In this document: piece after piece, positions 1 to 31,188 of the stretch
Layout of the letters: each line of letters opens with the position of its first letter
How positions within the stretch are numbered: position 1 is the stretch's first letter
Source of the DNA: a virus
Length of the DNA: 32,703 bases
IMG/VR virus record: IMGVR_UViG_3300022690_000789
Coordinates: 1-32,703 of that record
Reading direction: 5' to 3' (one strand)
Notes under the pieces: generated by a model
Told to the model about the DNA's origin: nothing
Databases searched by the model: none
Seen by the model: the letters and a program-made list of their open reading frames with translations, nothing else
Program-made: the position numbers and the translations under genes

Positions 1-1359
1 ACGGCTGATGAAGTTTTTTATGGTGGAGCCGCTGGAGGGGGAAAAACAGAATCTCTCCTTGTTGACGCAATTCGTCAGATCGGCAAAGGGGGCTATCATG
101 GACTTCTTCTTCGCAGGACTTATCCCGAGCTCGAAAAATCCCTTATTCTGCGATCACATGAGATCTTCCCTAAAATCACTAGAGGAAAATGTAGGTATGA
201 CTCGATCAACCATAGATGGCTATTTCCTAACCATGATATCATCGAATTCGGACACTGTAAAACTAGGCAAGATGTCAATAAATACCAGAGTGCTGAATAC
301 CATTACATTGGATTTGATGAACTCACCCACTTTCCACATGAAGTATACCTATTTTTATTCTCAAGGCTCAGATCAAGAAGAAAAGAAATTAAATGTTACA
401 TGCGATCAGCCTCAAACCCAGGAGGAGAAGGACACAACTGGGTTAAAAAACGGTTCATTGACAGACTCAAACCCTGTAGAATCGGGTATTTCAAAAGAGT
501 CAAAGATCAAGACATAGAAACAGACGGTACTGATACCAATTCAATATCGCGGTGTTGGATTCCAGCTGGTGTCAAAGATAACCCAAAAATAGATAAGTCT
601 TATGAAACCTGGTTGAATCAACTTCCAGAGATTCTAAGAAAGGCTTTTCTTCTTGGGGATTGGAATATCTTTGTAGGACAGTATTTTAAAGAGTTTGATT
701 TTAATCTACATGTCATACAGCCATTTGAGATTCCAGGCTATTGGCCGCGGTATCGAGCAATTGACTGGGGTTATAGTGATCCTACTTGTTGTCTATGGTT
801 TGCAGTTGCGCCAGATGGGCAACACTTTTGTTATAGAGAATATTATAAAAATAATACAGCACCCAAAGATGTAGCTATAACAATTAGACGAATGACAGGA
901 TCACGGCAGGTAGAAGCAACCTTTGGGGATCCTAGCATGTGGAATCGCCAAGCTAATGGGAGATCTGTCTTTCAAGATTTTGTAGATGAAGGCTTGATCA
1001 TGACCAAAGCAAATAATGATCGAGTTCAAGGTTGGATTAAAGTTCATGATATGCTTGCTCTAAGATCCAATGGGAAACCCAAACTAAGAATTTTTATCAC
1101 TTGTGAAAATTTAATTAGAACATTACCAGCATTACAGTTTTCGGATAAATTAGGAAAGAAAGAAGACGCATCACAGACACAAGAAGATCATGCTCCTGAT
1201 GCTTTGAGATATCATGCAATTAGCACTTTAGTTGAAGATGGATATCCAACAATTACACCAAAACAAGCAGAGGAGAATGTCCATAAATTAACTCCTCCAG
1301 GAACAGAGGATATGGAAATGGTCTGGGATAACGAAACGGGGTATATCGCTAATGGCTAG
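1..1359 (+). CDS. terL: Large terminase subunit (5' partial)
   Basis: ATP-driven DNA packaging motor and headful or cos nuclease that docks on the portal. The frame is open from base 1, so the start lies outside the window; 452 residues are present. Walker A is GGAAGGGKT at residues 8-16 of the visible part, Walker B ends in D106-E107 (IGFDE), and a coupling motif SASNPGG lies at 136-142. The RNase H-fold nuclease has D255 (AIDWGYSD), D310 (FGDP) and D396/D400 (DHAPDAL). The ATPase and nuclease signatures lie in one uninterrupted frame, so there is no frameshift. The stop overlaps the start of the next small gene (ATGGCTAG). Very little is missing at the N-terminus because Walker A sits at the edge. 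Identification is firm. Confidence 0.95.
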   Translation, partial: TADEVFYGGAAGGGKTESLLVDAIRQIGKGGYHGLLLRRTYPELEKSLILRSHEIFPKITRGKCRYDSINHRWLFPNHDIIEFGHCKTRQDVNKYQSAEYHYIGFDELTHFPHEVYLFLFSRLRSRRKEIKCYMRSASNPGGEGHNWVKKRFIDRLKPCRIGYFKRVKDQDIETDGTDTNSISRCWIPAGVKDNPKIDKSYETWLNQLPEILRKAFLLGDWNIFVGQYFKEFDFNLHVIQPFEIPGYWPRYRAIDWGYSDPTCCLWFAVAPDGQHFCYREYYKNNTAPKDVAITIRRMTGSRQVEATFGDPSMWNRQANGRSVFQDFVDEGLIMTKANNDRVQGWIKVHDMLALRSNGKPKLRIFITCENLIRTLPALQFSDKLGKKEDASQTQEDHAPDALRYHAISTLVEDGYPTITPKQAEENVHKLTPPGTEDMEMVWDNETGYIANG

Positions 1360-1516
1360 TCATTTATCTAATAAATTAAGAAGTTCACATATGCCCAAAA
1401 CAAAAAGATCTAGGGCTAGAGTTTCACGGAAGATTCGTTTTTTAAAGAAAGAAGGTAAATCTCAAAAAGAAGCCGTAGCCCAAGCTTTAAATCGGTTTCG
1501 ACGTAAGGATTTATAA
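1352..1516 (+). CDS. Small basic phage protein (54 aa)
   Basis: The start overlaps the terminase stop by 8 bases, which suggests translational coupling. The product is strongly basic, with a C-terminal half of the form FLKKEGKSQKEAVAQALN. That pattern recalls small Lys/Arg-rich phage proteins carrying a 'GKS.KQAVAIAL' helix often found near packaging and head genes; this is recognition of a pattern, not of a function. An internal ATG at codon 14 (MPKTKRSRA) is an alternative start. The gene fills the space between terminase and the next gene exactly. Function unknown. Confidence 0.7.
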   Translation: MASHLSNKLRSSHMPKTKRSRARVSRKIRFLKKEGKSQKEAVAQALNRFRRKDL

Positions 1517-1518
1517 TT

Positions 1519-1767
1519 ATGCGGCGTCATAAACATATGATAATTTCATTACGTACAATAGCTATGTTGTTCACTAAAGGTGAACATAGGTATTCAATGG
1601 ACAATGATGGATTACCGAAAGGTTCTAAAATTATTTCAGCAGCTTATCAACGTGGAAGAAGTGATATAACTTTCCTTATTGAATGTGGAGAATTTCCACT
1701 CAGCGGGGATACAGATAATCTTCCCATACTTATTCCATTGGTGAGGAAACTAACTAATGCCAGATAA
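1519..1767 (+). CDS. Hypothetical protein (82 aa) upstream of portal
   Basis: Not recognised. It starts two bases after the previous stop and overlaps the portal start by 11 bases, so it lies in the packaging operon and is probably coupled to portal translation. The N-terminus is basic (MRRHKHM); the rest mixes beta-type segments (DITFLIECGEF) with a proline-containing C-terminus (LPILIPLVRK). No signal peptide or clear metal site is seen. A small head-assembly factor is possible from position alone. Confidence 0.6.
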   Translation: MRRHKHMIISLRTIAMLFTKGEHRYSMDNDGLPKGSKIISAAYQRGRSDITFLIECGEFPLSGDTDNLPILIPLVRKLTNAR

Positions 1768-3478
1768 AAACAAAGCTATGGCCCAAGTTTTAGGCGATGT
1801 TCAACGTTGGGAAAATGAATCATCTTTATTTTTTCGGGATTTTAATAGGCATGCAGATGCATATAGGATGCTTTCGCCAAATAGACGGGTAGGGACACAA
1901 CATCTTTCTAATACTCGAACTGCTGAAACTGCTAGAGCTACAGAAACATTAGCAACTTTGATCTTTCGAATGATGACCTCTTCAAATCCTAATTTTCAAT
2001 TAGTATCAAGACACCCTAATTTTGGAGATAGAGATTTAGTAGGGCCCGAAGCTGTATTAAAATTTAATCAACATGCCTCTCAATATCGCAGACGGTTAAT
2101 GAAAGCACTTAGAAGTGGGGTTCTTTTTGGTAGTGTTCCAGTTGAATTGGGATGGGATAATAATTTCATGTTGGGAGTAGAAGGCCCAACTATGATTCCG
2201 AAAAGTTTACTACAATTTGCTTTTGATCCTTTTGTTTCAGAAATTGATCAATCTGATTGGTTTGCAACAATTGATTATATTACTGAACAAAGATTAAAGG
2301 ATATGGTTACGGCTGATCAAGCTGCTAAAGATAAAGATGAAGATGCTGTAAATGTTTGGGATGAAGCTGAAATTCGTCGTGGCTTAGGGCAAAGAAATAG
2401 CAGAGGTTTTAGTGTTTGGATCCAGGAAAGATTGACAAATGCAGGTTATACTCAAATTCAAAAAGGATTAAATGAAGTTATTACTTGGTATGGTAAACTT
2501 CCAGATCAATCTGATAAAATGTGGGTAGTGACTATTTTAAATAGAAATTCTGTGATACGATTTCATGAGAGTCCGTATAATGATATTGATGGGCTTGCAC
2601 CATTTGAAATAGCTAATTTTACGGAATTTGAATTAGAAGCATTTGGTTATGGTGTAGGTAAATTTGGTCATAGACTTCAACGAGAGTTAGATGCTAATAG
2701 AAATCGTTATCAGGATCTTATTACTTTTAGTCTCTTTAATATGTGGGAGATTCCTAAATCAGCTGGGATTACTAGAGTTTTAATTAAACCTTTAATGGTT
2801 TTACGTCCAACTGAAGCAGGCCAAATAAATCCCTTACGCCCAGATTTAGCAGCTCTTGGCCCGGGAATTAAACTTGAAGATGTTTTTAAAGATGATTTTA
2901 GGGCATTAACTGGTGCCACTTCAAATTTACAAGCTGTAGTTACAAAAGCAACCGCCACTGAAAGTAGTATTGCGCAAACTGAATCAATTAGAAAAGTTTC
3001 TGTTATTGCGGAATTAATGGCAGAGCCTTTAATTAGGCGAACGCTTTTACGTTGGCATGGTCGTAATATGAAATGGATGGATTCCCCTCTATGGTTAGGA
3101 ATTGCTGGTAGTCCTAAACCTGTAATGGTTTCCAAATCTGATTTGCGAATTCCATTAGATGTAGATCCCAGAATTGTAACTGATAAAGATTTTCGTCCGC
3201 AAAGATTAGAAGCAATTAATTTTGGATTACAAACTTTAGTAACACTTGCAAGAGAAGATTCTACTGTAGATGTTAAACCCCAAGTGAAAGCTCTTGCCAA
3301 TGAATTACTTAGAACTTTAGGTGTTAATATCGATCCTATTAAGCCATTAGCTAAAATGGCTGATAGAGCTGAGGGTGTATTGAGTGGGAAAAATGAATTA
3401 CTTAGAGAAGTTGCAGAAACTCCAGATATTGTTGATCAAGCTGGTTTAGCAACCCCAGTTCCACGGGAAACTCGGTAA
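1757..3478 (+). CDS. Portal protein (head-tail connector)
   Basis: Forms the dodecameric ring at one capsid vertex through which DNA is packaged and ejected. The 573-residue length, the position directly after terminase and the composition fit podovirus-type portals: an N-terminal helical region with Arg-rich segments (PNRRVGTQHL, TRTAETARATETLATLIFRM), a long alpha/beta middle and a helical C-terminal stem region containing repeated QTESIRK-type helices. No single catalytic motif exists for portals, so the call rests on order, size and overall look. The reading frame is intact and a ribosome site (AAGGAGG) for the next gene lies at its stop. Confidence 0.8.
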   Translation: MPDKNKAMAQVLGDVQRWENESSLFFRDFNRHADAYRMLSPNRRVGTQHLSNTRTAETARATETLATLIFRMMTSSNPNFQLVSRHPNFGDRDLVGPEAVLKFNQHASQYRRRLMKALRSGVLFGSVPVELGWDNNFMLGVEGPTMIPKSLLQFAFDPFVSEIDQSDWFATIDYITEQRLKDMVTADQAAKDKDEDAVNVWDEAEIRRGLGQRNSRGFSVWIQERLTNAGYTQIQKGLNEVITWYGKLPDQSDKMWVVTILNRNSVIRFHESPYNDIDGLAPFEIANFTEFELEAFGYGVGKFGHRLQRELDANRNRYQDLITFSLFNMWEIPKSAGITRVLIKPLMVLRPTEAGQINPLRPDLAALGPGIKLEDVFKDDFRALTGATSNLQAVVTKATATESSIAQTESIRKVSVIAELMAEPLIRRTLLRWHGRNMKWMDSPLWLGIAGSPKPVMVSKSDLRIPLDVDPRIVTDKDFRPQRLEAINFGLQTLVTLAREDSTVDVKPQVKALANELLRTLGVNIDPIKPLAKMADRAEGVLSGKNELLREVAETPDIVDQAGLATPVPRETR

Positions 3479-3489
3479 GGAGGTTTCTA

Positions 3490-3798
3490 ATGAAAGCATC
3501 TGATGTTTATCTCCCAGAAACAGACCAAGGTAAAAAAGAATTTTTACGACAAGCATATGAGGTAGAAAAAATTATACATTCTCCAGGATGGAAAATTCTA
3601 AGAAATTATTGGCACCATTTAAGAGAAAATATATTATCCGAAATAGAATCAGCAAAGTCAGATAGGAAATTTCAATATTATCAAGGGCAATTAAAAGCTT
3701 TGAGACAAACTATTGAAACTGTAGATCAAATTTTAGCCGATGCTGAAACGATGAAAGCAGATTTAGAAAACCAGGAGGATGTCAATGGCCCAACATAG
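3490..3798 (+). CDS. Small helical head-region protein (102 aa)
   Basis: Not recognised by family. It is preceded by a near-perfect AAGGAGG seven bases before the ATG, so it should be well translated. The sequence is almost wholly helical and charged, with a region (about residues 55-95) of the pattern KFQYYQGQLKALRQTIETVD likely to form a coiled coil. It sits between portal and the acidic protein below, where small assembly chaperones are commonly encoded; that role is inferred from position only. It overlaps the next gene by 14 bases. Confidence 0.7.
   Translation: MKASDVYLPETDQGKKEFLRQAYEVEKIIHSPGWKILRNYWHHLRENILSEIESAKSDRKFQYYQGQLKALRQTIETVDQILADAETMKADLENQEDVNGPT
3773..3778 (+). promoter_or_regulatory. 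Shine-Dalgarno AGGAGG that decides the start at 3785
   Basis: AGGAGG ends directly against an in-frame ATG at 3779, leaving no spacer, but lies six bases before a second ATG at 3785. Normal ribosome spacing therefore favours 3785. Confidence 0.7.
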
Positions 3799-4261: not shown

Positions 4262-4561
4262 ATGAAAAAAATATTAATCAGTTGTTTAATTTTATTTTTA
4301 AGCATCGGTTCTAGTTCAGCATTAACAATTGATCACTTAAATGTTCTAAAAACTTTTGTTGGTAAAGATAAACCTACAGAACCGCAGAAATATTACATTA
4401 TTGAATTGATGAAAAGAGAAACTAATCCATTACATTTTAAATATTTAATAATTCTTTCAGTAGCAGTTGATGAACCATTTGCTACTTATTTGCCACTACA
4501 AACCATTGAATGGGTTAAATATGAATTAAAAAAAGAACAAAGTCAAAAGGAGGTCAAGTAA
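4262..4561 (+). CDS. Exported small protein with Sec signal peptide (99 aa)
   Basis: The N-terminus has the form of a cleavable signal peptide: MKK, a hydrophobic core (ILISCLILFLSIG) and small residues SSSA before a likely cut near residue 20. The mature part is helical, with no recognised domain. It has a good ribosome site (AAGGAG before the ATG). It is the first of three consecutive genes with signal peptides in the virion operon, which is unusual for phage particle proteins. It could be a periplasmic or envelope-acting factor rather than a structural one. Confidence 0.7.
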   Translation: MKKILISCLILFLSIGSSSALTIDHLNVLKTFVGKDKPTEPQKYYIIELMKRETNPLHFKYLIILSVAVDEPFATYLPLQTIEWVKYELKKEQSQKEVK

Positions 4562-4975
4562 GTGCAAAAAATTATAGTCGCATGTTTATTGGTTCTTGGC
4601 TTAGCAGTTTTTGGTCATGCATATACACGAACTGTCGAGGAACCTATTAGAAAAGTTACAGATCCAGAAAGTTCTGATATTTCTGTAAGTGTTTCTAATT
4701 CAACTTGGACACTTGTAGTTCCATTAGCTGCTGATGAGTTAAAAGGTCGTGATGGAGTGATTATTAATAATCCTTCTGTAAACAATGCAAATGTTATTGG
4801 GATTATTACACCACATGATCAAGCACCAACTGTTTCAACTAATACAGCAATAATTGAGATAGCTCCTGGTGATCCTGATAGAGAGATTAAATTATCGGAT
4901 GAACAAAATCTCTTTATGAATTCTAGGCATTCAGCAGCAGAGACTATTTACATCCAAGAATTTAAACAAAGATAA
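4562..4975 (+). CDS. Exported small beta-rich virion-region protein (137 aa, GTG start)
   Basis: Starts with GTG directly after the previous stop; AAGGAGG lies eight bases upstream, which supports the GTG. A signal peptide (MQKIIVACLLVLGLAVFGHA) is followed by YTRTVEEPI. The mature part is beta-rich with IINNPSVNNANVIGI and IEIAPGD segments, reminiscent of the small beta-sandwich phage proteins that carry an 'iqNpS..n.yig.....l.pG' pattern. The post-signal TRTV motif recurs in the next gene, suggesting the two proteins work together or share processing. Function unknown. Confidence 0.7.
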   Translation: MQKIIVACLLVLGLAVFGHAYTRTVEEPIRKVTDPESSDISVSVSNSTWTLVVPLAADELKGRDGVIINNPSVNNANVIGIITPHDQAPTVSTNTAIIEIAPGDPDREIKLSDEQNLFMNSRHSAAETIYIQEFKQR

Positions 4976-4989
4976 ATAGTTGATCGATT

Positions 4990-7074
4990 ATGAGTCGCCG
5001 ATTTATCTTATTACTTATAAGTAGTTTTGTAAGTATTGGTTTTCTATATGCTTTTACTCGAACTGTAGCTACAAGTATCAATCTAGTACAATGGCAGACC
5101 GATACAGATTTTAATAAGGGTTCTTTGACATTAATAGAGGTTATTGGAACTAATGACGTCGCATTTATTCAGTTAGAGGAGTTTGATGATCAAACATTTA
5201 ATATTGATTATGAAACAGCCAGTGAATATACCGTATCAAGTGATAGTATAACAGTTGCTGATGGAGTTTTAAAATTAGCTACTCTAACTGGTAATACAAC
5301 AACTTATCCATTTACTGATTCTGGAAATTACACATTTAATTCTTCATCAGTAATCGTTACTGGTGGGGTTGGTAGATTACGATCTGCACCCTTTGTAGTT
5401 GCTCAGTGGCACTTAAATGAATCTTCTGGTGATAATGTTGATGATGCTTCTGATAATAACAATGATGGAACAAGATTTAATATGGAAAATGCAGATTGGG
5501 TTAGTGGAAAGTTAAATAATGCTCTGAGATTAGACGGAGTCGATGAATATGTAGATATGGGTGACATTGCCTCTTTTGAAAGAACTGATCCTTTCAGTAT
5601 TGAGTGTTGGTTTAATGCTCCATCAGATGCAGACGATGAATTTTTAGTTGCTAGAGAAGCAGATACGGGAGGGGGATCTCGAGGTTGGGTTATGATGTTA
5701 CAAGGCTCAGTAGGAAAAGCACAATTCACATTAACTAGTGATCCTTCAAATCGGATAAGAGCACGCTCAACTACAACAGGATTAGACGATGGGACATATC
5801 ATCATTTTATTGTGACATATGACGGATCAAGCGATATTAGCGGATTAAATATTTATGTTGATGGATCTTCTGAGACTCTTACTGATACAGTTAACACTTT
5901 AAGTGCTACTACAATCCAATCAACGAATACAATTATAGGTGCTAGAAGTGGAGGAACACAAATTTTATATTCCGGTGATATAGATGAAGTTGTGATTTAT
6001 TCTAGGGAGTTAACTCTTATTGAAGCGATAGCACGATTTAATGCAGGAAACGGAAGTGAAACGACGTTTTTTAATACAGAAAATCCAACTCTAGAGCCGA
6101 CAGGTGCATTTACTTATTTAACTTTGCTTAATGAATTTGATGTAACTGAAACTTTAACTTTGGGAACTTCTATTTCTTATATAATTAGTGATGATACTGG
6201 CACAACTTTCTCTTTCTTTAATGGTTCAGATTGGGTAACTTCAGACGAAACATTTGCACAATCTAATTCTTCAACGACGGTAGATGAGAATATATCAACT
6301 TTTTCTTCGAGTGGTACATTTAAATTTAGGGCCTTTCTTCATGCTGATGTTTCAACAGGAACACCACAAATAGATTTAATTTCAGTGCAAACTGATGTAA
6401 GTTTTCCTACAGATGATAACTTTTTTGCGGATACAAAAGATTCTTCACAAGTAGTTCCATCAACTCAAGCAGTTTGGTTGACATTAACAATTACTGAATC
6501 TTTACCGGCATTGACAACAGGAACAATTTTATTATCAAATGATGGTCGTTCTACTTGGCAAACATTTGATGGATCAAATTGGGTTGTTGTTATTGATTCA
6601 GTAACACGAACCGTTGGGACTGGATTTACAGTTGCTGAAACTAATTTTTCCACATTTCCCAATGGTGATGATACATTAGATGTACGAGTTTTTCTTAAGA
6701 CGGATGGAAATTCTAGTAATCCAAATGTTAGTAATATTCAAATAACTAATGATTCTGGATTTGCTTTAAGTGGGAATTTTGAAACTAATGAATTTAGTTC
6801 TGGAGAAATAGATATTCTTTGGCAAAATTTACTTGTTTCATCTACAACCCCCCCAGGAACTAGCATTATTTATAAAGGCAAAGCGGCAAATACATCTACT
6901 GAAATAGTTTTAACAACTTTTACAGTTATATCACCTAGCAGATTTACAAATTTAGAGGGACAAATTCTTCAGTTAAGAATTGAAATGATTGGAGTAAGTA
7001 CAGCTCCTCCAACCTTAGATAAGATTGGAGTTAGATATCAGACACCAAGAGTTCCATCAATACAAGCCCCATAA
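4990..7074 (+). CDS. LamG/concanavalin-like lectin domain protein with signal peptide (694 aa)
   Basis: Probable adhesin or fibre-like protein. A hydrophobic N-terminus (residues 1-21, ending FLYA) looks like a signal peptide and is followed by FTRTV. Residues about 136-355 form a LamG/concanavalin A-like domain: AQWHLNESSGD, LNNALRLDGVDEYVDMGD, FSIECWFNA, YHHFIVTYDGS, GLNIYVDGS, IDEVVIYSRELT are the usual strands. After it come beta modules with repeated FFNGSDWV / TFDGSNWV and FRAFLHAD / VRVFLKTDG signatures (about 400-580) and a third, more divergent one to the C-terminus. Such domains typically bind glycans. The ribosome site is weak. Its place before scaffold and capsid is odd for a receptor-binding protein. 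Confidence 0.8.
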   Translation: MSRRFILLLISSFVSIGFLYAFTRTVATSINLVQWQTDTDFNKGSLTLIEVIGTNDVAFIQLEEFDDQTFNIDYETASEYTVSSDSITVADGVLKLATLTGNTTTYPFTDSGNYTFNSSSVIVTGGVGRLRSAPFVVAQWHLNESSGDNVDDASDNNNDGTRFNMENADWVSGKLNNALRLDGVDEYVDMGDIASFERTDPFSIECWFNAPSDADDEFLVAREADTGGGSRGWVMMLQGSVGKAQFTLTSDPSNRIRARSTTTGLDDGTYHHFIVTYDGSSDISGLNIYVDGSSETLTDTVNTLSATTIQSTNTIIGARSGGTQILYSGDIDEVVIYSRELTLIEAIARFNAGNGSETTFFNTENPTLEPTGAFTYLTLLNEFDVTETLTLGTSISYIISDDTGTTFSFFNGSDWVTSDETFAQSNSSTTVDENISTFSSSGTFKFRAFLHADVSTGTPQIDLISVQTDVSFPTDDNFFADTKDSSQVVPSTQAVWLTLTITESLPALTTGTILLSNDGRSTWQTFDGSNWVVVIDSVTRTVGTGFTVAETNFSTFPNGDDTLDVRVFLKTDGNSSNPNVSNIQITNDSGFALSGNFETNEFSSGEIDILWQNLLVSSTTPPGTSIIYKGKAANTSTEIVLTTFTVISPSRFTNLEGQILQLRIEMIGVSTAPPTLDKIGVRYQTPRVPSIQAP

Positions 7075-7088
7075 GATTTGAAAAGTCG

Positions 7089-7106
7089 AGGCCCTAATGT
7101 GGGCCT
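7089..7106 (+). terminator. Hairpin before the scaffold/capsid cassette
   Basis: Perfect 6-bp stem AGGCCC/GGGCCT with loop TAATGT, in the 59-base gap after the LamG gene. It is followed by AATAAATAAAA and not by a T run, so it is either a weak terminator or, more likely, an RNA stability or processing hairpin upstream of the highly expressed scaffold and capsid genes. Confidence 0.5.
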
Positions 7107-7133
7107 AATAAATAAAAACATAAAGGAGGAATC

Positions 7134-7901
7134 ATGTCTGAAGATATGAATCCGTCCGCAGGTCAGGTAGATCCCGAGTTAGAAGGGACTAAGGTAGCGG
7201 AGCCAGAACCAAAACAAACTAATAACGAGGAAGGGAAGGTCGATCCCGTCCGCAGGCAAGAGCAGATCAATGATGAGACTGTTCCGCAATGGAAATACAA
7301 TCGTCTTTACCGAAGACAGAAGAAAACGGAAGAGACCTTGGAAGCTTCAATGAAGCAAATTGCTGAATATAAGACTACGTTGGAGGAGTTTAGAGCTCGC
7401 CCAGTTCAAACTTCTCAAGATCCTAATCAAGATTATTTTGCGAATCCCGCAGATGCAACTGCTCGTATTGTTGCAGCTGAGATGGATAAACGATTCCAAA
7501 AGTTCGAGAATAGGTTCGATGCAAAACAACGTAGTGATACTCATGAAAGATCGGTTAACGAGGCCCTGGATTATGTACGATCCCAAAAAGATGTCACTTC
7601 TCAAAAAGAACTAATGGAAATTGCCGATGTTATGGATGAGTATGGGTTAGATGGGCTAGCCCGTACAGATCCTATTGGTGCAGCAGAAAAAGCACTGAAG
7701 AATTGGAGGCAAGAGAAAGGGATAACGAACAACTCGCTGAAAAAGCGACAGGCTGTTTCTGTAAAAGGAACTCCTGCTATGCAGTCATCCGGTTGGACGT
7801 TAGAAAAAATTAACAAACTCGCTAAGGATAATCCTGACGAGTATGCTAAAAGAGAAGATGAGATCATGGCTGCTTTAAATTCGGGACGTGTAACACAATA
7901 A
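7134..7901 (+). CDS. Capsid scaffolding protein
   Basis: Internal scaffold for procapsid assembly. The 255-residue protein directly precedes the major capsid gene, is highly charged, starts with a disordered acidic region (to about residue 45), continues with long coiled-coil helices (YRRQKKTEETLEASMKQI, MDKRFQKFENRFDAKQR) and ends with a basic-acidic helical tail (LEKINKLAKDNPDEYAKR). That layout is typical of phage scaffolds. A strong AAGGAGG precedes the ATG. Codons such as CTC, GCC, CCC and CGT are commoner here than in flanking genes, consistent with selection for high expression. Confidence 0.8.
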   Translation: MSEDMNPSAGQVDPELEGTKVAEPEPKQTNNEEGKVDPVRRQEQINDETVPQWKYNRLYRRQKKTEETLEASMKQIAEYKTTLEEFRARPVQTSQDPNQDYFANPADATARIVAAEMDKRFQKFENRFDAKQRSDTHERSVNEALDYVRSQKDVTSQKELMEIADVMDEYGLDGLARTDPIGAAEKALKNWRQEKGITNNSLKKRQAVSVKGTPAMQSSGWTLEKINKLAKDNPDEYAKREDEIMAALNSGRVTQ

Positions 7902-7912
7902 GGTAAATCACA

Positions 7913-8752
7913 ATGGCTAACGAAATTACAACTACTGAAGCTGCTGCCGTAATTCCTGAGGTATGGAGACGAAATGTACTGAAGGCAAGATACGCTAGAC
8001 AGGTTGTTGTTCCCCGGGTGGGAAATGTGACGCAAGACATCCAGAAAATGGGTGATATTGTTCATATTCCTACCATGCCCCAGACTCTTTCAATCAATGA
8101 TGTGGGTTCTGGTGGTTCACTTACGAATCAAGCGATTACTATTACTGATACGACTCTGACCATCGACCGATGGAAAGAGACGACTGTGGATATCACAGAT
8201 CGATCAGTGGTACAAAGTATCGTTGATTTGTTTAGGGAATTTTCAATCTCGTTTGGTGATATTTTGGCAGAGCATCTTGATGAACAGTTGTTAGCTGAGC
8301 ATTCAAACATCACCACAAATGCTGTCGGAGGCGATCAAACGCTGGACGACGATTTGATGACTGATGCAATTAGACTTCTCGATGATATTCCTGTGCCTGA
8401 AGATGATAGGTCATGGGTTTTTGCTCCTATTGCAAAGCGTGATCTTATGCGACTCGATAAATTCGTTCTTGCGAATCAAACGGGTATGTCTAAGGGATTG
8501 CAGATCAATGGGAACTTCGGAGAGATTTATGGTGCTCCAGTTCTAACAAGTTCAAAAGTTGCGACATCTGGTGGTCAAAGAAAGAATCTTTATTTTCATC
8601 GGGAAGCTATTTTTATCGGCATCCAGAGAAATATCCGATTCCAGAAATTGGCTAAAACCCAGCTGTCCCAGAAACTCGTCGCTGATCTTCTATATGGAAT
8701 TAAGACGGTTAGAGAGAATCATGCTGTTGTCGTTTCAACCAGTTCTTCGTAA
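7913..8752 (+). CDS. Major capsid protein (HK97-fold)
   Basis: Shell protein of the head. The 279-residue product follows the scaffold with an 11-base gap and has typical coat-protein features: an N-terminal arm (EVWRRNVLKARYARQVV), a GDIVHIPTMP strand, an ITIDRWKETTVDITD type extended loop, a long central helix (DILAEHLDEQLLAEH) and a late segment (NGNFGEIYGAPVLTSSKV) that matches the usual 'G.i.G.pV..S..v' strand of HK97-fold coats, followed by LYGIKTVRENHAVVV at the C-terminus. Leucine codons are mostly CTT/CTG/CTC/TTG rather than TTA, unlike neighbours, fitting very high expression. The N-terminus has no sign of a protease domain. Confidence 0.92.
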   Translation: MANEITTTEAAAVIPEVWRRNVLKARYARQVVVPRVGNVTQDIQKMGDIVHIPTMPQTLSINDVGSGGSLTNQAITITDTTLTIDRWKETTVDITDRSVVQSIVDLFREFSISFGDILAEHLDEQLLAEHSNITTNAVGGDQTLDDDLMTDAIRLLDDIPVPEDDRSWVFAPIAKRDLMRLDKFVLANQTGMSKGLQINGNFGEIYGAPVLTSSKVATSGGQRKNLYFHREAIFIGIQRNIRFQKLAKTQLSQKLVADLLYGIKTVRENHAVVVSTSSS

Positions 8753-8765
8753 GGGGGATAATATT

Positions 8766-9188
8766 ATGAAATTTCTTTCAATGTTGTTCTCTTTCGTTCT
8801 GGTAGCTACGATAGCTCATGGTGCTCCATCGTTTCAAGTTCCTCGTGGACAAGACGGTGTGCCCTTGCGTGGGGACGAATATGGTGGAGCTTCCTCTAAA
8901 CTCATTACTACGGCAGATGGAACCGAACAGGTTGTATTTGCAGGTAGAGGTGTAGTTTATGGAGTTCTACTCAGTTCTGGCGCAATTACGAGTTATGCTG
9001 TTCTCAGTGATTCTGGCCCAGTAACTTCTCCTACGGGAGCTGTTACTTCTCAGATGGTTTATGAAAGTACTGCAACTAAGCAATTCAAATTCCCAAAAGG
9101 AGTTCGTGTTGCTGATGGTGCAACTCTCGCAATCACTGGTGGAGCCGGAGTAACTGCAACAGTCTTTTATCAAGACGAACAAGAATAA
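8766..9188 (+). CDS. Exported small beta-rich protein after capsid, decoration-protein candidate (140 aa)
   Basis: The start at 8766 is preceded by GGGGGATAATATT; a longer frame begins inside the capsid gene but has no ribosome site. A signal peptide-like N-terminus (MKFLSMLFSFVLVATIAHGA) precedes a beta-rich, Gly/Ser/Thr-rich body with GVVYGVLLSSG and GVRVADGATLAI strands, resembling small phage beta-sandwich proteins found next to capsid genes. Codon use matches the scaffold and capsid genes, so it is probably made in large amounts. It may decorate the head, but a Sec signal on a head protein would be surprising; an exported cell-surface role is the alternative. Confidence 0.7.
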   Translation: MKFLSMLFSFVLVATIAHGAPSFQVPRGQDGVPLRGDEYGGASSKLITTADGTEQVVFAGRGVVYGVLLSSGAITSYAVLSDSGPVTSPTGAVTSQMVYESTATKQFKFPKGVRVADGATLAITGGAGVTATVFYQDEQE

Positions 9189-9202
9189 GTCGTAATCGAC
9201 TT
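9187..9202 (+). terminator. First hairpin after the capsid cassette
   Basis: Perfect 6-bp stem AAGTCG/CGACTT with a four-base loop TAAT, overlapping the stop codon of the gene at 8766-9188. No T run follows. It is directly adjacent to a second, stronger hairpin. Confidence 0.5.
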
Positions 9203-9203
9203 A

Positions 9204-9222
9204 GGTGGGGTAACCCCCCACC
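9204..9222 (+). terminator. Second, GC-rich hairpin after the capsid cassette
   Basis: Perfect 7-bp GC-rich stem GGTGGGG/CCCCACC with loop TAACC, followed by AAAAGACG rather than by T residues. With the hairpin at 9187 it forms a tandem pair that closes the capsid cassette. It could attenuate transcription into the tail genes or protect the 3' end of capsid mRNA. Confidence 0.55.
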
Positions 9223-9233
9223 AAAAGACGATT

Positions 9234-9464
9234 ATGAAATGCCCAGAATGTAAAATAGAAGTGCATGTCTATCGAATTATAGATGGTAAAGATATATGTC
9301 ATGAATGTGCTCCTTCTATAATGAGCCCAATGTTGACTAATGTCCGAGCAGTCTATGGAAGATTTGGTGGAACAGCAGCACATTTAAAAGATATTAAAAC
9401 AAGGAGGTTGGCTGAAGACGGTAGATCAGTTGTTCGATATCGTCCTAAGACTTATATATTCTAA
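9234..9464 (+). CDS. Zinc-ribbon protein (76 aa)
   Basis: Two CxxC pairs (C3/C6, CPEC, and C22/C25, CHEC) make a short zinc ribbon; the C-terminal half is basic (LKDIKTRRLAEDGRSVVRYR). The start lies 12 bases after the hairpin pair and has a poor ribosome site. The stop overlaps the next start (TAATG). A zinc ribbon among tail genes is unexpected; it might be a small virion component or a regulator of late transcription. Function not known. Confidence 0.7.
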   Translation: MKCPECKIEVHVYRIIDGKDICHECAPSIMSPMLTNVRAVYGRFGGTAAHLKDIKTRRLAEDGRSVVRYRPKTYIF

Positions 9465-10561
9465 TGGCACAACTAGAAGAGTTTATATCGCTTTATCAAA
9501 GGGTAGCTAAAAATGTTGGATTAAGTACATCAAGAACTTCTGATATAGCTCTTGCTAAAGATTGGACGAATAGAGCTTATTTAGATTTTAATGGAAAATT
9601 TCCCTGGCCTTGGGCATTAAATAGGTTTTCTTTTCAGACTGTACCAAATAAAACTGCTGGAACCGTATCGGTTACACAGGGATCAAGAACTGTCACTGGT
9701 AGTGGTACAGCATTTAGTACAGATGATGAAGGCCAAGTCTTTTTATTAAAGAATGAAAAAGATAATAAATATATTATTTTAAAAGTCAATAGTTCCACTG
9801 AGTTACTTCTTGAACAGCCATATACTTTAGAAAGTAAAAGTGATCAGCTCTATATCATACATCATAAATATTATATTTTAGCTTCAGAAGCCCAAAATGT
9901 ATATGATATGTATGTCGAACGGGATAAACTTAGATATGCTGATTTACGAGATTTCGATGCTAAATTTCCTGATTCTCAAGAACGGGGTATTCCATTACAT
10001 TGGACTCGATGGGGTAGGGATTATAAAATTCGTACTCATTCAGCTGGTACTATTACAATAGAAGCTGAAAGTAGAACGGTAATTGGGGTCAGTACAAATT
10101 TCTTAGGTAATGTACAACCAGGAGATTTAATTATTGCAACTGAAACTTATCATGTAAAATCAGTTGATTCTGATACACAAATTAGTTTGATCGAAATAGT
10201 AACTACTGATAGAACTAATGTTTCTTATACAAGTGAATCAAAAGCCGCCCCCATAATTTGGATCGATGGGGCACCAGTTGATATTACAACTATAGAATAT
10301 TTATATAAACGTCGAACATATCCAATGCAAGGAGATACAGAATGTCCCAATGTTGATAGGCAGTTTTTGGATGCAATTGTTTCTGGGGGCGTTTTGTATG
10401 GATATCAATATTTAGATGATGATAGACAGCAAAGTCAAAAAGCTCTATTTGAATTACAAATTCGAGATGCTGTAGCATTTTACGATTCATCTGAACGCCC
10501 AGATGCTATGGAATGGGCAGAGGAGTCATTTATCGATGGCGACGAAGTTAGGATCCGTTAA
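9464..10561 (+). CDS. Head-to-tail adaptor / tail tubular protein A-like
   Basis: Probably joins the portal to the tail nozzle. The 365-residue protein starts with the helical, aromatic-rich N-terminus common in such adaptors (AKDWTNRAYLDFNGKFPWPWAL), similar in role to T7 gp11 or P22 gp4. It contains two copies of a small beta element, residues about 65-118 (AGTVSVTQGSRTVTGSGTAF) and 194-247 (AGTITIEAESRTVIGVSTNF), a motif often seen in phage tail proteins. The C-terminal region returns to helices (RQFLDAIVSGGVLYGYQYLD). The gene overlaps both neighbours. The family call is by pattern and gene order. Confidence 0.65.
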   Translation: MAQLEEFISLYQRVAKNVGLSTSRTSDIALAKDWTNRAYLDFNGKFPWPWALNRFSFQTVPNKTAGTVSVTQGSRTVTGSGTAFSTDDEGQVFLLKNEKDNKYIILKVNSSTELLLEQPYTLESKSDQLYIIHHKYYILASEAQNVYDMYVERDKLRYADLRDFDAKFPDSQERGIPLHWTRWGRDYKIRTHSAGTITIEAESRTVIGVSTNFLGNVQPGDLIIATETYHVKSVDSDTQISLIEIVTTDRTNVSYTSESKAAPIIWIDGAPVDITTIEYLYKRRTYPMQGDTECPNVDRQFLDAIVSGGVLYGYQYLDDDRQQSQKALFELQIRDAVAFYDSSERPDAMEWAEESFIDGDEVRIR

Positions 10562-12077
10562 TTACGAAGATTTTAATGGGGGTTTAGACGACACTACACC
10601 TTCAACTAAGCTTCCTATTACTCGAGCACAAAGAGCGCGGAATTGGAATTTTGTTCCAGGTGGTGGACTTCAAAAAAGAAAAGGTTCAATTAAAGTTAAT
10701 TCTTCTGCCTTAAATTCTGGAGCTTCAGTTTTAGATATTGGAGAGTTCCGAGAATCAGGTGGAACAAACAGAATAATTACTGTTGCTGGTGATAAGATTT
10801 TTAAGATGGAAGATTTAGATGGAACTTTTGATGATATTACTGGTGGACTTACTTTGAGTGCCGGAAATAATAATTTGGGAACTCATGCTATTATGAACGA
10901 TAATTATATTTATACCAATGGTATTGATGCCCCGATTAAAGTTAATTCGAGTGGAGTTGCTTCACTTTTAGGTGGAAGTCCTCCAAGCGGTAGAAGTATT
11001 ATTGAAATCAATAATTTTATTTTCTTTGGTAGATTACCATCTAATAAATCTAGGGTTCAATTTTCAGGTTTAGCGGCCGAAGAAACTTATGATCTAGTGA
11101 ATGATTTTATTGATGTTGATCCAGATGATGGAGATGAAATACAAGCTTTAGGTTCTTTGTTTAATAATCTATATGTTTTTAAAGGATTTTCTATACATCG
11201 AATTCCTGTAATTAATATCCCATTTGCTAAAGAACGGATAGCTATAGGAATTGGATGTGCTGGAGCAAAAGCCTTAACAAATGTTGGTGGGACTCATATT
11301 ATCTTTATGACTAAAGATGGGCGTTTTATGGCTTTTGATGGTTCCGTATTAACAGATATCAGTTCTTTACGTATTCGTAATAAGATTGCCAGTCTTAATA
11401 AATCCAGATTGCAATTTGTTTCGATGCAAGATTATAAAACTCGTCGACAAATTGTGATCACTTTATCAACTGGATCGAATACAACTCATGATGAAATTCT
11501 TATATATGATTATAGCAATGGAATTACGGATGGGGCATGGATGCCAGTTACTGGAATTGCAGGTAATGCTGTTTTATCAATGTTAGATCAACGCAGTTCT
11601 ACAGCAGGTAGTGAAATTCTTCTTACTGGAGATTATACTGGATTTGTAAGAATTCAAGATACAGGAAATCTAAATGATGATGGTGGAAAGATTGACGCTT
11701 TTTGGGAAACAGGATGGAATTATTTTGGTACTCAGCACAATATTAAAATTTTACGTGCAGGGCATATTTTAACTACCAAAGAAGGATCTGGTGTAACAAT
11801 GGATTTTAAAGTAGGTTTTGATTTTGAAACAGATTTTTCAATCACTGAAAGAGTGACTTTAGCTGAAACTGGAGCTGAATGGGGCTCTGCTATATGGGGC
11901 GTTGATTTATGGTCAGGAAAAACCATTATTCAAAAACATTTAACTGACATGGCTAGTTTTGGGTTGGCAATGAAATTTGGATTTCAAAGTAATAGTATTA
12001 GTCCATTAGATTTAATGAGATCATTTGAAGTTCGAGCAAAACCAGCTGGAACTCGGGTTGCCGAGGCATTAACATAA
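10536..12077 (+). CDS. Tail nozzle / tail tubular protein B-like (513 aa)
   Basis: Likely the large tail-tube protein below the adaptor. The start MATKLGSVNY at 10536 is chosen because GAGGAG lies about 10 bases upstream; an ATG 11 codons earlier lies deeper in the previous gene without a ribosome site. The body is almost wholly beta, with NGGLDDTTPSTKLP and the nearby ARNWNFVPGGGLQKRKG, then repeated blade-like strands (IITVAGDKIFKME, IYTNGIDAPIKVNSSG, NNLYVFKGFSIHRI, IFMTKDGRFMAFDGS), as in beta-propeller nozzle and stabilisation proteins of podoviruses. The stop overlaps the next start by one base. Confidence 0.7.
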   Translation: MATKLGSVNYEDFNGGLDDTTPSTKLPITRAQRARNWNFVPGGGLQKRKGSIKVNSSALNSGASVLDIGEFRESGGTNRIITVAGDKIFKMEDLDGTFDDITGGLTLSAGNNNLGTHAIMNDNYIYTNGIDAPIKVNSSGVASLLGGSPPSGRSIIEINNFIFFGRLPSNKSRVQFSGLAAEETYDLVNDFIDVDPDDGDEIQALGSLFNNLYVFKGFSIHRIPVINIPFAKERIAIGIGCAGAKALTNVGGTHIIFMTKDGRFMAFDGSVLTDISSLRIRNKIASLNKSRLQFVSMQDYKTRRQIVITLSTGSNTTHDEILIYDYSNGITDGAWMPVTGIAGNAVLSMLDQRSSTAGSEILLTGDYTGFVRIQDTGNLNDDGGKIDAFWETGWNYFGTQHNIKILRAGHILTTKEGSGVTMDFKVGFDFETDFSITERVTLAETGAEWGSAIWGVDLWSGKTIIQKHLTDMASFGLAMKFGFQSNSISPLDLMRSFEVRAKPAGTRVAEALT

Positions 12078-12427
12078 TGGCTACTTTAAGTATTCCACAT
12101 CAATCTGTAGCAGCTCTTCAAGATCCATCCAAATTATTGGAGAATTTTAAAGCTATTGTTGATCGAATTAATGATGGATCAGTTTTATTGGGGGCAACAT
12201 CAGTTTCTATAGTATTCTCAACTACCCCAAATACAACATCATTAGTGCCACATACATTAGGACGCATACCTGTCAATTGGATAATTTTAGGTGTGGATAA
12301 ACAAGCAAATATTTTTGAAATAAATAAATCATCTTGGACAACAACCGAAGTGCAATTTAGAGTTTCAGCTGTTGGACTTACCGCAACAACTCAAGAAATT
12401 GTAACAGCAAAGATTTTATTACTTTAA
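12077..12427 (+). CDS. Small tail protein (116 aa)
   Basis: Coupled to the nozzle gene by TAATG. The N-terminal helix (LQDPSKLLENFKAIVDRIND) is followed by a beta segment of the pattern VPHTLGRIPVNWIILGVD ... SSWTTTEVQFRVSA, a signature seen in many phage tail-associated proteins ('hgLGr.P.gwiv', then 'W....i.l'). It probably forms part of the tail tip or anchors the fibre encoded next. No signal peptide, unlike the following gene. Confidence 0.7.
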   Translation: MATLSIPHQSVAALQDPSKLLENFKAIVDRINDGSVLLGATSVSIVFSTTPNTTSLVPHTLGRIPVNWIILGVDKQANIFEINKSSWTTTEVQFRVSAVGLTATTQEIVTAKILLL

Positions 12428-12437
12428 GGAGAATACA

Positions 12438-13961
12438 ATGAAGAAAATATTATTGGCATTACTAGCAATTGGTATGATGAATCCATTATATGCTGGACTC
12501 ATTACAAAAGCTAATACGTTTTCAGCTGGAACGATTATAGATCCATCACAGGTCAATACGAATTTTGATGATATCTATAATGAATTTAATGGTTCCATTT
12601 CTAATGCAAATATTAGTGGTAGTGCAGCAATTGTTGCTTCAAAATTAGATTTAGCAACTATTGCCCAATCTATAGTAATTACTAATTCAGGTAGTACAGT
12701 TTTAACATTAAATAATTCTTCTGGGTCTAATGATATATTTGCAGTTTTAGATAATGGAACAACCGTATTTGCTGTATTAGATGGTAATGATGTTGTTATT
12801 TCATCATCGGCAACATCTGCTCCTGGTGTATTTCTTGTTCATGGTAATTCAAGATTTTTTAATGTAGGAGATTCTAGGGGTTGGGATATTGTTGGCGAAT
12901 TAAATAGAGGAGATATAGTTAGTAAACCAGCTATTGAAGCAAGTACAACAGCATGGATAGGAATAGCGGGTGATGGACAACTTCATTTAGGTACAAATGA
13001 TGTAACAAGACTTCTTATTCAAGCAGGATTATTCACTTTTAAAGATTCAATACCACAAGGATGGGATATTTCAACGAGTATTAATAGGGGAGATTTAATA
13101 GCTCGCCCAGCTATATTAGGCAGCAGTAGTGGAGATGCGTTTATTGGTGTTGATGGATCCAATGAATTACATCTTGGAGTTAATAATAATTCCAATTTAA
13201 TTATTGTACCTAGCGGTGATGTAGCAATTGGAACAACTACCCCCAAAGGTGACTTACATGTTACAGATGGTACATCAGCTTTGGGCCCAAATCCTAATAC
13301 GCTTGCAGATCAATTTATTATAGAAACAAGTGGGAATACAGGAATGACAATTATGACAGGAACGTCTTCTACTGCTACTATTTGTTTTGGTGATACTGAT
13401 AATAGTTGTATTTCAGCCATTAAATATGTCCAGAGTTTAGATACGATAGTTTTTAATACATCTGGTTCTGATAGGGTGACTTTACTAGGAAATAATTTTG
13501 GTATAACAGGATGCGCAGATCCAGATCATGATCTTGTTATTGGTGGAACAGGATCAGGATGTGATACAGGTACTTTTTCAGAAATAGATGCAGGAGAAGC
13601 CACATTTGCAATTTCATCTGGCAGAAATCTAAAAAAGAATATATCAGAAGTTACCTTAGATCGAGCAGATATATATCAAAAGATACTTAATACTAAAGTT
13701 TATGATTATGATTTTAAAGATAGAGTACATCCAGTTACTGGAAAAACAATTATTGGTGGTAAAAATAGACGAGGACTAATGGCTGATGAGTTTGCTTTAG
13801 TACTTCCAAATAGAAGTACACCAACTACATTAAGAATGGATGATGTTATTATGACTATGTGGTCAATAATGCAACATTTAATAAATGAAAATCGGGAACA
13901 AAAAACAGACTTAGACACTTTAAAGAGTAGAATAGAAACTCTTGAAGCTCTTCACCCATAA
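12438..13961 (+). CDS. Tail fibre with S74 intramolecular chaperone domain and signal peptide (507 aa)
   Basis: The N-terminus is a signal peptide-like stretch (MKKILLALLAIGMMNPLYAG). Residues about 27-75 carry the common tail element 'TFSAGTIID...N..F...Y....G.I.NANISGSAAI..SKLDL'. Two related units of about 60 residues follow (DSRGWDIVGELNRGDIVSKP and IPQGWDISTSINRGDLIARP). The C-terminus is a peptidase S74 chaperone: catalytic Ser394 and Lys399 in SGRNLKKNI, then YDYDFKD, GLMADEFALVLP and a final coiled coil (LDTLKSRIETLEAL). In S74 proteins this domain trimerises the fibre and cuts itself off at the Ser. The usual SD pair is SG here. Combination with a Sec signal is odd. Confidence 0.85.
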   Translation: MKKILLALLAIGMMNPLYAGLITKANTFSAGTIIDPSQVNTNFDDIYNEFNGSISNANISGSAAIVASKLDLATIAQSIVITNSGSTVLTLNNSSGSNDIFAVLDNGTTVFAVLDGNDVVISSSATSAPGVFLVHGNSRFFNVGDSRGWDIVGELNRGDIVSKPAIEASTTAWIGIAGDGQLHLGTNDVTRLLIQAGLFTFKDSIPQGWDISTSINRGDLIARPAILGSSSGDAFIGVDGSNELHLGVNNNSNLIIVPSGDVAIGTTTPKGDLHVTDGTSALGPNPNTLADQFIIETSGNTGMTIMTGTSSTATICFGDTDNSCISAIKYVQSLDTIVFNTSGSDRVTLLGNNFGITGCADPDHDLVIGGTGSGCDTGTFSEIDAGEATFAISSGRNLKKNISEVTLDRADIYQKILNTKVYDYDFKDRVHPVTGKTIIGGKNRRGLMADEFALVLPNRSTPTTLRMDDVIMTMWSIMQHLINENREQKTDLDTLKSRIETLEALHP

Positions 13962-16573: not shown

Positions 16574-19002
16574 TGCCCAATGGATTTGAAGCTTTACGAG
16601 CGGAGATTGAGCGGAGAAAAACACCACAAACTCCGCAATTCAGTGCCCTTCGGGCCCGCATTCAAGCACAACAACCAGAAGCACCTCCTACCCCTATTCC
16701 TTCGGAAGTTCCTCCTCCGCCTGTTCGAACAACTCCAGTAGGTCGAATTGCTGGGGGAGTTCAAAGATTAGCTGAAGCTACCAGAGAAACCATCGAACCA
16801 GCTAGAACGACAGAACAAGCAAAACGATTATTTGCTCCAGTCGCAGGTCAATTCGGAGTATCACAACCATTACAAGAAGTTGGAGAAAAGCTTGGGGCAA
16901 TAAGACAAGCTGCCATAGAACGGATCCCAGAAACCAAAATAGCCCAAAGATTTCCTAAACTTGTGGCTGCCGTAACCACTGCCGCTGAAATATTGGCTCC
17001 TGGAGAATTGACCCCTAGTGGCCTTCAAATTGAATTAGGGGGTGTTGCAGCCTTCGGATTGGGTGGAAGGGCCTTTGGAGCCCTTCGTAGAGCCATTAAA
17101 GGCCGTCCTACAGCTTCGTTTGCTGCTTTAGAAGCCTCAGTTGCTCCTGAAGCACCAGGTGTATTTCAACAACTAAAATCTCAACTCTTACGATCTGGAG
17201 AACCAACCTTTAGACGTCAAGGAAAAGCAGGAATTTCTCTTGCAGATGATTTTAGAAATTTACAAGCGCAAACAGAAATTAGAGCTGGAACAGCAAAAGA
17301 TAAATTTATGGATGATTTAGTTGCACTAAATGATATAGAAAAAGATGCTTTTGTTGAATTTTTAGACAAAGGTATTATTCAAAAAAACTTAACTCCTAAA
17401 GCAAGATCAGTTGTAATGAGAGCTAAAGGAGTTCTAACTAATCAGGGCCAAATACTTGAACAACTTTCTAAAGAAACTGGTTTTAAAGTAACAACTCCCC
17501 AAGGGAAACGACCATTCTTTGCACGTAAAAATTTCTTTCCACGAGAACCTGATTTTGATCGTTTAGCAACAACTGAAGGAAGAGCAGATGAAGTTAAACA
17601 TTTACTTGATCCTCGTCAACCTCAAGCTTCCTCACCTGAAGAGGCTAATAGAATTATTGATTTAATTTTACAACGTCAATCGCCTATCCTAGATGATGCA
17701 GCTATTCGAGGAGTTGGTCAGACCTTTAGGGGAGTAGCCACTGAACTTAAGAGAGCGAGAATCTTTGATCTTAAAAACTTTATTCGTGATCCAGTTAGAG
17801 CTTTGAGTAGAAATATTGATAGAACAAGTGAGTCAATTGAAAGAATAAAAATATTTGGGCCATCTAATGAGAAGTATATTCAGAGATTATCTGAAATTCG
17901 AGCAACTGGTGGCGATTTTGAATCAGCAAAAACACTTGGAAATCGTCTTTTAGGATTAGAAGAAAAGAATTTTGGATTAAGTCGAGCTTTATCTGAAATT
18001 AGAGGATTTCAGGCCCTAAAATTAGGGCTAGCGGTAATAAAGAATATACCTCAAGGCTTTGTTAACTCATGGTTAGAATCAGGGAGTGTACGAGTAGCAG
18101 CAAAAGGATTCTTTAGTCAATTTACAAAAGAAGGTGTTAGATTTGCTAAAAGTTCTGGGGCGGCTGGTAATAAACTTGTTGATGATTATTTAGATGCAGT
18201 AGTTGGTATTGTACAAAATCGTCCAGGACTATTTCAAAAACTTGGTGGTAAATTATTAGATATAACAAAATTTAAATCTGCTGAAATAGCCAATCGTGTA
18301 GTAGCGGCAAATGCCGGTAGAGAATACGCACAATCTATATTAGTTCCTCGTATACTAAAGAATCCTTTAGATAAACTTGCTCGTAAGGAATTTAAAAATT
18401 TAGGCGTGAACGCAGAAAAAATTATAAAAAATCGTGGTGTCGATCAACAAGATTTACTTAGAATATCCAATGAATTCTCAAGATTAACACAATTTAAAGC
18501 TGATCCTCTATCATTACCTATATTTTGGACGACTCCGTGGGGTAGAGTTCTTACTCAGTTTAAATCATTTTCGTTCAACCAAGGAAAACTTATTGCACGT
18601 AATATGGCAAAGAGACCTATTACAACTCCGATTCGCTTAGCTGCTGTCGCTACCGCCGTAGGTATTCCAGTTAATACATTAGATAGTGTTTTACGAGCTA
18701 GATTTAAAAAGAATCAAGAAAAAATGGATAGTTTTATAGATGAAGCTTTAGCAGGTTTAATGACCATTGGAGGACTTGGATTATTCAGTGATATTTTTGA
18801 ATCGGCTAAATTTGGAAAACAAGGTTCATTCGGATTCTTCTTGGGGCCAACTGGTTCTGATATTGCTAATCTAGCTTTTGCGACAAGACAAGCAGTCCTT
18901 GGTAAACCTAAAGCGTTGGCTAGAGAAGCAGTTAAAAAGATTCCTGTTGCTGGGCCTGCCCTTAAAAATATCTTATTTCCACCTAAGCAAAAGAGAAAAT
19001 AA
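16573..19002 (+). CDS. Large internal virion protein (809 aa)
   Basis: Likely the largest ejected internal protein. The N-terminus has two related short units (FEALRAEIERR and FSALRARIQAQ), then a Pro-rich linker (about 32-55). The middle is helical with many Lys/Arg. The C-terminal 200 residues include FWTTPWGRVLTQFKSFSFNQ, a pattern seen near the end of many giant phage virion proteins, plus hydrophobic segments (LAAVATAVGIP, LAGLMTIGGLGLF) and a basic tail KQKRK. No transglycosylase motif was found. It overlaps both neighbours by TAATG, so the last three large genes form one translational unit with the gene at 19002. Confidence 0.65.
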   Translation: MPNGFEALRAEIERRKTPQTPQFSALRARIQAQQPEAPPTPIPSEVPPPPVRTTPVGRIAGGVQRLAEATRETIEPARTTEQAKRLFAPVAGQFGVSQPLQEVGEKLGAIRQAAIERIPETKIAQRFPKLVAAVTTAAEILAPGELTPSGLQIELGGVAAFGLGGRAFGALRRAIKGRPTASFAALEASVAPEAPGVFQQLKSQLLRSGEPTFRRQGKAGISLADDFRNLQAQTEIRAGTAKDKFMDDLVALNDIEKDAFVEFLDKGIIQKNLTPKARSVVMRAKGVLTNQGQILEQLSKETGFKVTTPQGKRPFFARKNFFPREPDFDRLATTEGRADEVKHLLDPRQPQASSPEEANRIIDLILQRQSPILDDAAIRGVGQTFRGVATELKRARIFDLKNFIRDPVRALSRNIDRTSESIERIKIFGPSNEKYIQRLSEIRATGGDFESAKTLGNRLLGLEEKNFGLSRALSEIRGFQALKLGLAVIKNIPQGFVNSWLESGSVRVAAKGFFSQFTKEGVRFAKSSGAAGNKLVDDYLDAVVGIVQNRPGLFQKLGGKLLDITKFKSAEIANRVVAANAGREYAQSILVPRILKNPLDKLARKEFKNLGVNAEKIIKNRGVDQQDLLRISNEFSRLTQFKADPLSLPIFWTTPWGRVLTQFKSFSFNQGKLIARNMAKRPITTPIRLAAVATAVGIPVNTLDSVLRARFKKNQEKMDSFIDEALAGLMTIGGLGLFSDIFESAKFGKQGSFGFFLGPTGSDIANLAFATRQAVLGKPKALAREAVKKIPVAGPALKNILFPPKQKRK

Positions 19003-19253
19003 TGGAAGAGTTCAAAAAACATTGGATTAAAATTTTAATGATAACTTTGACAGCGGGTATCCTATGGGCTAATGTTCAATACACAATCTCAGACCATGAT
19101 GAGGAAATTCAGACAAATAAATTGAGTATTTCTGGACTTCAATCCGAACAACACGAAATAAAAATAATCAATGCAGAAATTCTTCTTGAATTAAAATATG
19201 TCAATAAGTCTTTAGACCGATTAAATCTGGCAGTTGACAGATTAAATAAATGA
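19002..19253 (+). CDS. One-helix membrane protein with coiled coil; i-spanin or holin candidate (83 aa)
   Basis: A single transmembrane segment (WIKILMITLTAGILWANVQY, residues about 8-27) is followed by a long coiled coil (EIQTNKLSISGLQSEQHEIK and onward). This N-in, coiled-coil-out form is that of inner-membrane spanins (Rz) and of XhlA-like accessory proteins. It is the last plus-strand gene and its 3' end overlaps by 12 bases the end of the minus-strand endolysin. With the small lipoprotein at 19794-20006 it could form a two-component spanin split across the two strands. The role is inferred from shape and position. Confidence 0.55.
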   Translation: MEEFKKHWIKILMITLTAGILWANVQYTISDHDEEIQTNKLSISGLQSEQHEIKIINAEILLELKYVNKSLDRLNLAVDRLNK

Positions 19254-31170: not shown

Positions 31171-31188
31171 TATATATTCCCTCATATT

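Follow-up and report, generated by a model that had tools for sequence, protein, structure and literature searches.

Tailed-phage assembly is held to be cytoplasmic; why, then, would five genes in the head and tail region of an uncultured virus begin with what look like Sec-type signal peptides, and where would their products act? The window considered here, meaning the whole stretch of DNA that was analysed, comprises 32,703 nucleotides of an IMG/VR virus record (IMGVR_UViG_3300022690_000789). PHROG and Pfam matches give the order terminase, portal, scaffold-like gene, major capsid protein (7913–8752, + strand; phrog_267, E=9.5e-26; Phage_capsid_4), tail-tubular-like genes and internal virion-type genes, the last of which match phrog_342 ‘internal virion protein’, a podovirus-type arrangement. 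The terminase large gene is open from the first base, with its 5′ part outside the window, and a frameshift at the listed terminase ORF start (position 400) was rejected because the gene is simply truncated by the window edge. Known phages are remote relatives (capsid identity of 27% or less, terminase ~37–41%); tblastn against them gave no match for the portal or the fibre, and only a partial LamG match to S-PM2 for the LamG protein. No related loci were found through single window proteins (the capsid, the product of 8766–9188 and the DNA polymerase), relatives being obtained only through terminase and alignment-based queries, and among contigs of bacterial genomes retrieved through the terminase, no virion module with signals could be clearly made out. 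No tRNA was found in the window. Elsewhere in it, a tail-adaptor-like protein (9464–10561) matches tail-fibre PHROGs over residues ~63–144 and ~193–248, and two small exported-looking proteins on the minus strand (19794–20006 and 30877–31185) have lipobox-like cysteines (GSTG/C and VVFG/C) and are possibly spanin-type or surface lipoproteins.

The five open reading frames and their N-termini, all on the plus strand, are present as originally described, and each N-terminus has the n-h-c organisation of a Sec/signal-peptidase-I signal: a positive n-region, a hydrophobic core of 8–16 residues and small residues at –3 and –1, with the 8766 product marginal. The first two, of 99 residues (4262–4561; signal peptide MKKILISCLILFLSIGSSSA at 4262–4321, followed by LTID) and 137 residues (4562–4975, GTG start; signal peptide MQKIIVACLLVLGLAVFGHA at 4562–4621, followed by YTRTV), have no Pfam or PHROG match and carry AAGGAG and AAGGAGG, respectively, at their starts. 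The third is a 694-residue LamG/concanavalin-lectin protein (4990–7074; signal peptide MSRRFILLLISSFVSIGFLYA at 4990–5052, followed by FTRTV) with its LamG domain in residues 182–342 (5533–6015; Laminin_G_3, E=1.1e-18); no Shine-Dalgarno sequence was seen upstream of its start. The fourth, a 140-residue beta-rich protein encoded immediately 3′ of the capsid gene (8766–9188), has AAGGGGG before its start, and the fifth is a 507-residue S74 fibre (12438–13961) with signal peptide MKKILLALLAIGMMNPLYA at 12438–12494 and TTAAGGAGAATACA-ATG at its start. Strong AAGGAG-type sites thus precede 4262, 4562 and 12438, and 8766 brings the starts with a good site to four out of five, so that the idea of true starts lying downstream of the hydrophobic segment fails for those four. 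By its sequence, the 8766 signal (MKFLSMLFSFVLVATIA, ending in HGA) is the weakest of the five: the cut originally proposed between HGA and P is a poor one, having His at –3 and Pro at +1, and with AHG/A and TIA/H as alternatives the cleavage position is ambiguous. AlphaFold2 returned a low-confidence all-beta model for this protein (pLDDT about 55), with which Foldseek retrieved nothing at E≤0.001. A weak match to it in one bacterial genome (E=3.7e-4, 249 genomes) was not accepted as real.

Signals were detected with our own rule-based scorer (pass mark 6.4), which cannot tell signal peptides and first transmembrane helices apart. In control runs it placed eight of nine textbook signal peptides at 6.65–8.68, missing PhoA, and among 46 E. 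coli coding sequences from a 50-kb region it picked yaaX and yaaI together with two false positives, the membrane proteins hokC and nhaA. The products of 4262 (7.69), 4562 (7.33), 4990 (6.93) and 12438 (6.82) fall inside the range of the known signal peptides, and that of 8766 (6.49) lies just under it. Five of the 18 head/tail genes in the window pass, the next best (19002–19253) reaching 5.03, compared with 7 among 1,799 ORFs on the forward strand of other phage contigs, retrieved through terminase or capsid matches, a background that excludes the clade described below. The probability of at least five passes among 18 against this background is ~7e-9, a figure that treats genes as independent although within one genome they are not. 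The original view that such repetition is not due to chance is upheld by these statistics, and by recurrence in an unrelated clade that includes orthologues with and without a signal.

That recurrence emerged from a search for signals in related phage genomes, which located them at matching places in a clade of four uncultured contigs. One of these, L029, is a terminase relative of the window; its full record, G001, comprises L029, L159 and L160. The G001 capsid belongs to another family (phrog_14242, against phrog_267 in the window); L163, L164 and L179 are capsid relatives of G001 at 57–59% identity. In G001 the signals occur on three genes, namely the post-capsid gene, the one that follows the tail adaptor, and a third that encodes a 304-residue fibre-like protein carrying a distal-tail-fibre-like stretch. 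All four contigs share an orthologous post-capsid gene, which bears a signal in G001, L164 and L179; its L163 orthologue has none, possesses its own AAAGGAG and starts approximately where the others would be cut, from which the signal in this family reads as an added module. Models of the post-capsid family also reached a pLDDT of only about 55, and the fold evidence for it and for the 8766 protein is void. Three of the four (G001, L163 and L164) carry a signal on the fibre-like gene, the L163 product being a 1,203-residue homologue of tail fibres with a GDSL-lipase-like stretch just below the Pfam cut-off, and in L179 a signal occurs on a small Phage_depo_C-like protein. Since the large L179 fibre and a second fibre of G001 have no signal, the fibres of this clade do not all need to be exported. 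More distant capsid relatives have no comparable signals except for a weak one, lacking a Shine-Dalgarno site, in L180/L181; none of 58 post-capsid genes in the capsid-matched set of the window itself has one, and post-capsid and fibre-like signals are missing from nearly all other contigs examined. On this distribution, the trait is rare and clustered, and has arisen at least twice. A sub-threshold Pfam match of the G001 post-capsid protein to DUF6520, which overlapped the signal, was ignored. Separately, the mature starts of the 4562 product (YTRTVxxxI, 4622–4636) and the 4990 product (FTRTVxxxI, 5053–5067) are alike, and in G001 and L164 the post-capsid proteins begin with VTYTV and YTITK; such similar starts could be a shared attachment strand. 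L029 also encodes long SVWDSVRASV-type repeats (677–1651, minus strand), and a nearby gene (3207–3707) has Ala/Trp-rich repeats.

The fibre, the only recognisable one in the window phage, provides an opportunity to examine the boundary at the predicted cut. Its S74 domain spans residues 394–458 (13617–13811; Peptidase_S74, 24.1 bits against a cut-off of 22), but inspection by eye reveals SGRNLK in place of the SDxxxK catalytic motif; Ser and Lys are kept and Asp is replaced by Gly, making self-cleavage by this predicted domain uncertain. A profile of the phage-fibre N-terminal motif was built only from signal-less phage fibres in which it starts at residue 1 (Pelagibacter phage HTVC033P gp66, L083, MaAM05, L167 and the second fibre of G001). 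This profile matches the window fibre with E=0.0012 among 15,352 ORFs, its positions 2–39 aligning with residues 20–58 (12495–12611), and residue 20 is the first residue past the independently predicted cut. The alignment points to a signal placed before an existing virion domain. In addition to this conserved motif, the fibre has the locus expected of a tailed-phage fibre: the preceding gene for a tail-tubular/head-closure-like protein (10503–12077, + strand; phrog_578 head closure, phrog_5107) is separated from it by a gene for a 116-residue protein (12077–12427, + strand), a weak relative of L164:19774–20124 whose family also occurs in G001 ahead of the signal-less fibre. The synteny of tail-tubular gene, small protein and fibre is therefore common to the window and G001. 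Podovirus-type fibres such as HTVC033P gp66 and the G001 protein L160:6083–6892 share with the window fibre both the N-terminal motif and the place after the tail-tubular gene, but have no signal peptide. The source of one profile member, L011 (MW495066.1, ‘Microcystis phage MaAM05’; stated source hospital wastewater), appears to be a prophage-bearing bacterial contig, with proS, lepA, ftsH and glgX around the phage module.

The same motif also occurs in cells. In whole-genome searches, with phylum labels taken from the titles of centre genomes, it was present in 15 of 299 Pseudomonadota and 13 of 148 Nitrospirota, lying in most of these loci directly behind a signal peptide or signal-like helix; Pfam domains recognised in the remainder of these proteins were of the S74, LamG, C-type lectin or gp53-like kind. 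These chromosomal secreted proteins (L269–L303) thus resemble the window fibre in their signal, in the motif right after the cut and in the domains at their ends, but differ in lying outside phage head/tail modules, at least in the five loci read by eye for context, which were ordinary chromosome and not prophage. At a further locus, L309:6165–8055 (minus strand), two motif-carrying secreted proteins are encoded in tandem on the chromosome, and one of them has a C-type lectin domain at its end. Against the bacterial profile the window fibre reaches 38.4 bits, versus 21.7 against the phage profile, a comparison mildly biased by inclusion of the window in the query alignment. A published parallel is found in the mosaic adhesive trimeric (MAT) fibres of Bdellovibrio, exported adhesins that act on the predator surface or vesicle (PMC10769870). 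Like the window fibre, these possess a signal peptide, an elongated beta-rich fibre and a C-terminal S74 chaperone/protease domain, and are kin to phage fibres; however, they are cellular, and a conserved N-terminal beta domain of ~130 residues follows the signal (PMC10769870), at the place where the profile match puts the short motif of phage fibres in the window protein. Given the cellular look-alikes, the closer profile score and the match to MAT fibres, exchange between a phage fibre and a secreted cellular fibre is the likely origin of the window fibre, whose combination of signal, adaptor motif and S74 is shared with secreted bacterial fibres and was probably exchanged with a cellular gene of that kind. 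A signal on an S74 fibre is therefore not odd in itself, being part of the architecture of chromosomal secreted fibres, a point missed in the original view; what is odd is its presence at a phage tail-fibre locus.

Export and membrane anchoring had both been offered as readings of the five segments. The former is backed by the scorer statistics, the second clade, its orthologue pair and the domain boundary at the cut, whereas anchoring becomes less likely given short segments and a c-region followed by soluble, mostly beta-rich sequence. We consider Sec export of the five products highly probable on these comparisons. In the mechanism we favour, (i) the five segments would act as Sec/signal-peptidase-I signal peptides, (ii) host Sec would export the S74 fibre, the LamG lectin and three small, mostly beta proteins during infection, (iii) the signals would be removed and the products would fold outside the cytoplasm, and (iv) the S74 fibre would join the virion after export, for example at lysis, when the inner membrane is opened and virions cross the periplasm. 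The fibre most likely belongs on the virion because no other fibre is recognisable and its gene lies at the tail-fibre locus; there it would probably serve in receptor binding, having been attached after export or at lysis. Within this account the signals, their recurrence, the domain boundary and the cellular look-alikes are observed, whereas removal of the signals, export, folding beyond the cytoplasm and incorporation into virions are inferred, and the chances that the whole of it holds seem to us about even. To our knowledge no tailed phage adds Sec-exported fibres to virions, and our literature search found none; nor did it find a description of several signal-bearing fibre- or decoration-type genes in one tailed-phage head/tail module, although coverage was incomplete and this absence is weak evidence.

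Cysteine content mildly supports folding in an oxidising compartment. Cysteine accounts for 0.69% of residues in the mature signal-bearing proteins versus 0.37% in other head/tail proteins of the same phages (Fisher P=0.011, with related genes pooled and no correction for kinship). Close cysteine pairs are present in the three signal-bearing post-capsid proteins and absent in that of L163; the window fibre has four cysteines arranged as two pairs, and the 11 counted signal-less head/tail proteins of the window have two altogether. Three of the five mature window proteins possess no cysteine, so oxidative folding is not a general reason for export.

The main rival to virion joining is that the proteins are exported but never reach the virion, acting instead as secreted adhesins or lectins at the envelope of the infected cell, where they might mask receptors against superinfection or against re-adsorption to debris. 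The combination of signal, motif and S74/LamG/lectin architecture in bacterial chromosomes is consistent with such a role, as is the export of MAT adhesins (PMC10769870), and G001 has its second, signal-less fibre at the canonical place. Phages are also reported to encode secreted proteins, including those of Porphyromonas phages (PMC10367356), ORF22 of Thermobifida phage P1312 (PMC4569894) and the T4 antiholin RI (PMC8385771); these use host general secretion, as proposed for the window, but, where a role is assigned, serve in lysis control or host modification, and are mostly not of the fibre or decoration type. Against a purely surface role, the window has no other recognisable fibre and its signal-bearing one sits at the syntenic tail-fibre locus, while the signal-less post-capsid orthologue at the same place suggests a virion-type ancestor. 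We regard a surface role as a serious but minority possibility. A second reading, in which the segments stay uncleaved and anchor secreted proteins or assembly intermediates in the inner membrane, would suit a scorer that also picks first membrane helices such as those of hokC and nhaA, and the weak cut site of 8766; it is unlikely, in that hydrophobic cores are short and followed by small –3/–1 residues in most of the five, and the fibre domain starts right at the cut. Slightly less likely still is that the segments are leaders, either cleaved by a protease of the phage or vestigial and derived from the host, on proteins that stay cytoplasmic and assemble normally. Predicted signals on Porphyromonas phage capsid proteins have indeed been interpreted as prohead-protease substrates (PMC10367356), but PHROG and Pfam searches found no prohead protease in the head module of the window, and these are full n-h-c signals whose layout stays the same in two unrelated lineages while their sequences vary. 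A chance origin or misassigned start codons, for which one could cite the 4990 start without a visible Shine-Dalgarno site and the possibility that 8766 starts elsewhere, are very improbable in the face of the background statistics, the four well-placed ribosome-binding sites and a second clade with the same trait.

A broader proposition, which we advance tentatively, is that some tailed phages may build virion parts outside the cytoplasm. Fibres and beta proteins encoded next to the capsid gene would leave by Sec, undergo trimming and folding in the periplasm and join heads and tails on exit, a habit arisen in at least two unrelated lineages through signals added to virion genes or through captured secreted host fibres. 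With signals on fibre and capsid-adjacent genes in two unrelated uncultured lineages, the assumption of cytoplasmic assembly becomes testable, and clean test cases exist in the post-capsid orthologue pair with and without a signal and in the fibre whose domain boundary coincides with the cut site. The link to chromosomal secreted S74, LamG and lectin fibres further suggests that adhesin genes move between phages and bacteria.
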